A DNA stretch of 33,008 nt, taken from an uncultured Alphaproteobacteria bacterium (GTDB lineage: Bacteria; Pseudomonadota; Alphaproteobacteria; RF32; CAG-239). Below, piece after piece: positions 32,789 to 33,008 of the stretch. The stretch is from positions 1 through 33,008 of the forward strand of contig CALXVY010000018.1 in the NCBI GenBank assembly GCA_944392255.1, given 5' to 3'. The position numbers and the translations under genes are program-made. Below the pieces are notes generated by a model, which ran no database searches, was not told the DNA's origin, and saw only the letters and a program-made list of their open reading frames with translations. Every line of letters begins with the position of its first letter. Position 1 is the first letter of the stretch.

Positions 32789-32847
32789 TAAATCAATCGG
32801 CAACTTTTATAAAACTCTTACGAGCCAGACGAACCTTGGTTCGAGCC
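32761..32847. repeat. Two pairs of CGAG(T/C)C hexamers with 21-base spacing
   Basis: CGAGTC at 32762 and 32783, then CGAGCC at 32821 and 32842. Within each pair the starts are exactly 21 bases apart, two turns of DNA helix. The second pair includes GAACC-TT-GGTTC, a small hairpin. Such phased repeats can be operator or iteron sites; no regulator is known. Confidence 0.35.
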
Positions 32848-32862
32848 TCCAAACTATATAAC

Positions 32863-32900
32863 AAAAAAAAAGCACCTTAGGAACAAACCTACGGTGCTTT
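32863..32900 (-). terminator. Minus-strand terminator after the tRNA-like 3' end
   Basis: On the minus strand AAAGCACCGTAGG pairs with CCTAAGGTGCTTT (one mismatch) around a 6-base loop, followed by six more T. It lies 7 bases after the CCA of the tRNA-like sequence. Confidence 0.8.
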
Positions 32901-32907
32901 AAGGAAT

Positions 32908-32925
32908 TGGTGGAGCTAAGGAGGC
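32908..32925 (-). pseudogene. Truncated 3' end of a tRNA-Ala-like gene
   Basis: On the minus strand the sequence CTCCTTAGCTCCACCA reads as a T-stem 3' strand (CTCCT), an acceptor 3' strand (TAGCTCC) and ACCA, as in tRNA-Ala, and is followed by a terminator. The T-loop and AGGAG partner strand that should lie upstream are missing; instead the DNA changes to a T-run and an IS-like hairpin. The match is short, so a chance resemblance or an attachment-site copy is possible. Confidence 0.45.
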
Positions 32926-32931
32926 TGGAGG

Positions 32932-32966
32932 AAAAAAGAAACCCACCGGCCTAGCCGGTGGTTCTT
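32932..32966 (-). mobile_element. Imperfect hairpin, possible right end of an IS200/IS605-type element
   Basis: CCACCGGC (32943-32950) and GCCGGTGG (32954-32961) pair around a 3-base loop and extend by two A-T pairs past a bulged C (32942). On the minus strand a T-run follows. Bulged subterminal hairpins just after tnpB are typical of IS200/IS605 ends and of the 3' end of the TnpB guide RNA. It could also simply be a terminator. Confidence 0.4.
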
Positions 32967-32967
32967 C

Positions 32968-33008
32968 TCAAACGGGTGTAACCCTAATGGTGCCAGCAAA
33001 CGCCTTAA
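32968..33008 (-). CDS. Last 12 codons of a minus-strand gene, possibly TnpB
   Basis: The minus strand reads KAFAGTIRVTPV and then TGA (32970-32968), open to the window edge. The GTxRxTP-like ending and the hairpin right after it fit IS200/IS605 TnpB C-termini as I remember them. With only 12 residues this is weak, and the gene body lies outside the window. Confidence 0.3.
   Translation of the reverse strand, partial: KAFAGTIRVTPV

Follow-up and report, generated by a model that had tools for sequence, protein, structure and literature searches.

The displaced tRNA-Ala end of the contig

The window analysed here, a stretch of 33,008 nucleotides, is the whole of contig C18 of the draft genome of an uncultured alphaproteobacterium (G000; 43 contigs, 1.64 Mb), and its base 33008 is the end of that contig. 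The features found at this end, all on the minus strand, are as follows, from the contig end inwards:

32933..33008, minus strand: IS200 right end (hairpin at 32942-32961, then a T-run); the element continues beyond the contig end
32925..32937, minus strand: right end of a repeat core, TTTTTTCCTCCAG; its T-run is the site of IS200 entry, and the junction is ambiguous within the T-run
32908..32924, minus strand: second, displaced 3′ end of tRNA-Ala(GGC), 17 nt including CCA, recognised by its identity to the intact gene
32863..32900, minus strand: intrinsic terminator copied along with the tRNA 3′ end; a similar terminator lies behind the intact gene (L005)
32830..32850, minus strand: P2, the T-arm hairpin (GGAGGCTCGAACCAAGGTTCG) of a following unit that is truncated; it also occurs downstream of the intact gene and of other tRNAs
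32817..32829, minus strand: opening 13 nt of a type-A core, TCTGGCTCGTAAG, at which the truncated unit breaks off and meets the region upstream of apaG

A first-pass annotation made from the letters alone had noticed an acceptor-stem sequence followed by a terminator on the minus strand, with a hairpin and T-run upstream of the tRNA end, and all of these parts are indeed there: the terminator reads from 32900 to 32863, and CCTCCTTAGCTCCACCA at 32924-32908 is a 100% match to the last 17 nt of an intact tRNA-Ala(GGC) gene, which bears out the proposed tRNA-Ala identity. This gene lies on the minus strand near the start of another contig (G000:C2:288-360). Within the window itself, ARAGORN and Rfam detected no tRNA, as expected of a 3′ fragment.

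Moving away from the intact gene, one meets the CCA, the terminator, the hairpin GGAGGATCGAACCAAGGTTCG and a core of ~150 bp whose end reads AATAATCTCCACCGGAGATTATTTTTT; the left end of IS200 comes next. Past the IS200 right end in the window, the order is T-run, CCTCCAG, CCTCCTTAGCTCCACCA, terminator, the hairpin again and 13 nt of core, followed by unrelated DNA as far as a gene that we take, from its sequence and without a family search, to be apaG. The same core end, ...TTTTTTCCTCCAG, meets a tRNA 3′ end without interruption behind tRNA-Arg(ACG) in G000 (L022) and behind tRNA-His in another genome, G004 (L057). Moreover, the unoccupied site whose comparison had been suggested does exist in a relative: at the orthologous tRNA-Ala locus of a congeneric genome, G001 (L359), an uninterrupted variant of the core end, GGAGAATTTTCTTGCCTTCAG, is followed contiguously and without IS200 by CCTCCTTAGCTCCACCA, the terminator and the start of the hairpin. 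From both IS ends and from the G001 locus, we infer that C2, IS200 and C18 join in that order, the interior of the IS200 being absent from the G000 assembly. Synteny of apaG and tRNA-Ala is not kept in G001, G004 or G005, which is neutral on this join.

The feature in the window is thus read, with good though not full confidence, as the distal portion of the tRNA-tail repeat that follows tRNA-Ala(GGC), parted from its tRNA by IS200; this confidence concerns the identity of the feature and not the role of any RNA made from it. The earlier description of a tRNA body replaced at this point holds only in part: the 3′ end is better seen as a second copy within the repeat, with IS200 sitting in the T-run of the core hairpin.

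Recurrence of the repeat behind tRNA genes

The repeat has a period of ~175 bp and comprises a terminator, a hairpin made from the T-arm of the tRNA that it follows, and a structured core, after which the final 19 nt of that same tRNA are copied exactly, CCA included. Direct copies were detected by aligning each tRNA end with its own downstream DNA, under a strict rule of 13 nt with at most one mismatch, ending in CCA and lying within 900 bp. By this rule a tRNA's own 3′ end recurs downstream of 10 of 34 tRNAs in G000 and, in the best 30 tRNA loci of each of two further genomes, of 11 of 29 (G003) and 7 of 31 (G017), against expectations from swapped tRNAs of 0.09, 0.04 and 0.07, respectively. 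The control, a complete genome of another family (G041), had none among 30 tRNAs.

The boundary of the copy is well defined. Among 77 distinct alphaproteobacterial copies, 43 match over exactly 19 nt and nine over 20-21 nt, the rest being shorter; in units of 140-200 nt from genomes that we read as Gammaproteobacteria (same phylum, another class; E. coli was the positive control), the match is 18-19 nt in 21 of 23 cases, two of the 23 probably being whole tRNA copies. Counted back from the CCA end, the nineteenth nucleotide is tRNA position 58 in standard numbering, which belongs to the T-loop. Repeats of this kind stand behind 29 anticodon types in the Alphaproteobacteria, mostly with 155-265 bp between copies in the sequences inspected, and the presence of a unit differs between congeneric species.

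Several neighbouring observations may be recorded here. One G000 locus (C14, ~23648; L194/L357) carries the 3′ two-thirds of a tRNA-Thr(TGT)-like sequence followed by a complete type-B unit (described below); no tRNA is called there, no 5′ half is recognisable upstream, and there is no intact Thr-TGT gene among the 39 tRNAs found in G000. The locus may mark an island boundary or a gap in the assembly. At L161 (G385:C2 ~183000), two tandem units follow an Arg-TCT-like 3′ part whose 5′ half looks displaced or interrupted, and ARAGORN calls no tRNA. A different repeat, TTAGTTGCCTTACAGAAAACCCCGAGTTTACTCGGGG, occurs downstream of tRNA-Asp and tRNA-Val (L011, L021) and as an IS200 flank in another genus (L053).

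Anatomy, core types and covariation

In order, the parts of a unit are the terminator, an inverted T-arm, a purine-rich loop, a direct T-stem strand with GGTTCGA, the core, and the 19-nt 3′ copy, which is usually followed by the next terminator, so the terminator mostly lies within the repeat. Two main types of core can be told apart. Type B contains a hairpin, P3 (AGGC-AGAC-GNRA-GTAT-GCC), and type A has a terminator-like hairpin at its end. Apart from the tRNA-derived arms, type-A cores lack the P3 motif of type B, so treating the two as one family is a matter of shared architecture. By eye, the core behind tRNA-Asp and tRNA-Asn resembles type A in reverse orientation.

Covariation supports a structured RNA. 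Across P2 and P3 in 16 units, 85% of cells pair, against at most 41% in slid controls, and both sides change in 9 of 15 pairs. In permutation tests P2 matched the T-stem strand of its own tRNA far better than those of other tRNAs, both in the Alphaproteobacteria (9.23 vs 5.72 ± 0.21 permuted; n = 48) and in the Gammaproteobacteria (7.26 vs 5.63 ± 0.24; n = 23), and covariation was also seen in another helix, Px, which surrounds P3 and P4 (10.96 vs 9.22 ± 0.35, reached by 0 of 10,000 permutations), all of these figures somewhat overstating independence because the permutations ignore kinship of the sequences. RNAalifold returned no structure from a MAFFT alignment of mixed units; an alignment restricted to P2-P3 worked. 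A full acceptor-T minihelix (P1, with a full inverted copy of the acceptor) in every unit was considered and dropped, as in most units its match to the own tRNA was no better than to swapped ones; the own match was better in E. coli, in Gly-GCC and in a few others.

A covariance model of P2-P3 matches 18 of 385 alphaproteobacterial genomes, with E-values that are rough owing to a short calibration, and its strong matches outside the family of G000 are mostly behind tRNAs with their own 3′ copy. The exact P3 pattern has at least 88 matches in at least 80 loci of named genomes; the related genomes among these are by record name uncultured Alphaproteobacteria, mostly from the gut. Among the matches listed, 67 of 88 are downstream of a same-strand tRNA, P3 lying mostly 82-100 bp from the tRNA end; 21 anticodon kinds are represented, an own copy is present in 49, and about five of the matches that lack a tRNA are clearly due to chance.

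Comparison with known tRNA-linked repeats

For decades the tyrT repeats of E. coli have been a curiosity of one locus. In E. coli K-12, the tyrT/tyrV repeats have their parts in the same order as the alphaproteobacterial units. The likeness between these 178-bp repeats, with their RtT RNA (RttR, RF00391), and the units described here extends to position directly behind a tRNA, a period of ~175-178 bp, tandem arrays, the inverted T-arm hairpin with its short loop, the GGTTCGA, a GC-rich core, and the exact 19-nt 3′ copy with CCA. By architecture, then, namely a 19-nt copy of the own 3′ end together with a tRNA-specific inverted T-arm, the alphaproteobacterial units are of the tyrT/RtT type as far as sequence can tell. 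They differ from RtT in the core, which has either P3 with AGAC-GNRA-GUAU or the type-A form with its terminator-like hairpin, as well as in usually including the terminator and in following as many as a third of the tRNAs. They also match no Rfam family, RtT included: RF00391 found none of them up to E = 1, and no match in G000, against scores of 133-138 bits for four E. coli units.

In a sample of the phylum, RF00391 matches 46 of 398 genomes. In the loci looked at, Tyr, Lys, Pro, Ser and Gln tRNAs are all followed by RtT-like units of 140-200 nt with copies of 18-19 nt, which shows that tRNA-Tyr is not the only tRNA to carry the RtT type. Tandem gammaproteobacterial tRNA-Lys and tRNA-Arg(ACG) genes (L346, L347, L353) have successive 3′ ends that match over just 18 nt in the scan, and these may be either copies of the tRNA or short units.

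Variation in such repeats has also been reported among close relatives. In Salmonella, rtT is a 175-bp VNTR that differs between Typhi and Paratyphi A, as does a 220-bp VNTR at tRNA-Gly (PMC2658671); shared with the units described here is a tRNA-linked repeat of similar length whose copy number varies among close relatives, and in the portion of that report available the VNTRs are given as indels, without anatomy. A literature search, thin on subscription papers, found no account of such repeats behind many tRNAs.

Origin and possible role of the repeats

Covariation indicates that the fold of the strand is important, the simplest case being an RNA read through from the tRNA promoter. By analogy with RtT, the units would be transcribed by read-through from this promoter and would release small structured RNAs with a tRNA-like CCA end. 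Such an RNA would most likely mimic the T-arm and the 3′ strand of the acceptor towards tRNA-binding factors, and changes in copy number would come about by recombination between the direct repeats. A role for RtT in the stringent response has reportedly been proposed, and the mimic could possibly act there as well. We put the chances of an RNA-mimic role at about even.

A second and more doubtful proposal concerns how the units spread, and it may well hold together with the RNA-mimic role. Here the core would be a selfish, self-retargeting element that moves between tRNA genes and gains the local T-arm and 3′ end on arrival. In G000 the type-A cores of the Ala-GGC and Arg-ACG loci share 93% identity, against 73-82% between genomes, which is the pattern that such movement would leave, and the tRNA-specific arms and the variable presence between congeneric species fit it too. 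However, gene conversion between loci would yield the same pattern, no enzyme or intermediate was identified, and covariation points also to a function of the RNA or of the folded strand. Self-retargeting is compatible with the RNA-mimic reading as an account of how units spread, and on balance we hold it to be possible but rather unlikely.

Third, the copies could conceivably be ordinary duplicated att sites, stemming from island or phage integrases that act in the T-loop of tRNA genes, the element itself having since been deleted. When an element integrates in a tRNA gene, the usual outcome is one complete tRNA copy and a partial one (PMC9897764), so a partial second 3′ copy is common to such elements and to the repeats, and the copy boundary does fall within the T-loop. 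What lies between the copies here, however, is a structured unit of ~175 bp and no gene-bearing element; an integrase with cargo between att copies, the mark of tRNA-targeting integrative elements, was not found in the sequences inspected. Nor would this account lead one to expect the fixed ~175 bp spacing, the tandem arrays, the terminator often included in the copies, the same covarying core behind 21 anticodon types among the matches listed, or the same repeats at E. coli tyrT. A pattern scan of 2.9 million viral contigs gave no true match, and none for type A; a phage origin was set aside, the single viral match being, to judge by its equal length, apparently the same Natrialba contig as a chance match in the genome scan. 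Altogether this explanation is improbable.

The IS200 element and the contig break

The element that parts the repeat from its tRNA belongs to the IS200/IS605 family. Its right end in the window is 86-94% identical to the right ends of four relatives (L038, L039, L042 and L043), the first three of which are intact and carry one gene in ~0.68 kb, that of the Y1 transposase TnpA (149 aa, or 164 aa in one copy; PF01797, E = 2.7e-37). Its left end lies at the start of C2, immediately following the tRNA-Ala unit, with another at the start of C41, and subterminal hairpins occur at both ends, at 32942-32961 of the window and at the C2 start. In its hairpin ends and, as read from the intact relatives, its 149-aa Y1 transposase and length of ~0.68 kb, this is a TnpA-only IS200 with nothing unusual about it. 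A second, different Y1 transposase gene (L186; G000:C6:14435-14800), with an open frame of 166 aa, adjoins recA and is without clear copies of these IS200 ends.

A terminator-like hairpin with a T-run precedes the left end in L038, L039, L042 and at the C41 contig end, and the L043 flank is similar; these flanks suggest a preference of the element for terminator T-runs, or at any rate repeated insertion there. At the present locus it entered the T-run of the terminator-like hairpin that closes the repeat core, and not the tRNA body. The first-pass annotation had an IS200/IS605 element, or a larger island, joined at the tRNA 3′ end. The family end is present and adjoins that 3′ end, as it said, but the tRNA gene is uncut and intact on C2, and an island is unneeded, as G001 has the same locus uninterrupted. 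Its gene end reading AFAGTIRVTPV was rejected: TnpA of L038 stops at FTGSK*, upstream of AFAGTIRV, whose frame runs on without that stop, and the string is not conserved as a gene end. It had also considered, should the element be of the TnpB type, that its guide RNA would target the empty tRNA locus, and a search for tnpB found the zinc-ribbon domain (PF07282) absent from G000 and above cut-off in no genome of its family; with no TnpB there is no guide RNA. Given as well TnpA-only relatives and a T-run site like those of the other copies, a TnpB-bearing element or island that cut the tRNA gene is very improbable indeed.

The contig break is explained by the same element. The last 76-80 bases of the window are also found at both ends of C22 and at the end of C6, three further contig ends in all, which means that assembly halted within a multi-copy repeat. 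An assembly artefact, or a plain tRNA-Ala pseudogene at a contig end, might be thought of because the window ends at a break, yet the IS200 repeat accounts for that break and the order of tRNA, terminator, unit and copy is contiguous in G001 and behind many other tRNAs, which leaves this explanation hardly any probability. In G000, 9 of 39 tRNA genes lie no more than ~560 bp from a contig end, where about one is expected (contigs C1, C2, C5, C16, C19, C30, C31, C37 and C41). Further own-copy cases, split by contig ends, are those of Ala, His and Met, and tRNA-tail arrays appear to break the G000 assembly.

Implications

The repeats carry a practical warning, in that such 3′ copies are not to be taken for the attachment sites of islands, and they suggest why tRNA ends break the assemblies of these genomes. 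More tentatively, and with the odds rather against it, tRNA-tail elements could form a Proteobacteria-wide class of gene-less mobile elements that rebuild their ends from the local tRNA and yield a tRNA-mimicking RNA; were this self-retargeting class real, RtT of E. coli would be one local case of it. The occurrence of tyrT-like anatomy behind many tRNAs turns that locus into a general question, of which RNA the units make and how they acquire new tRNA ends.
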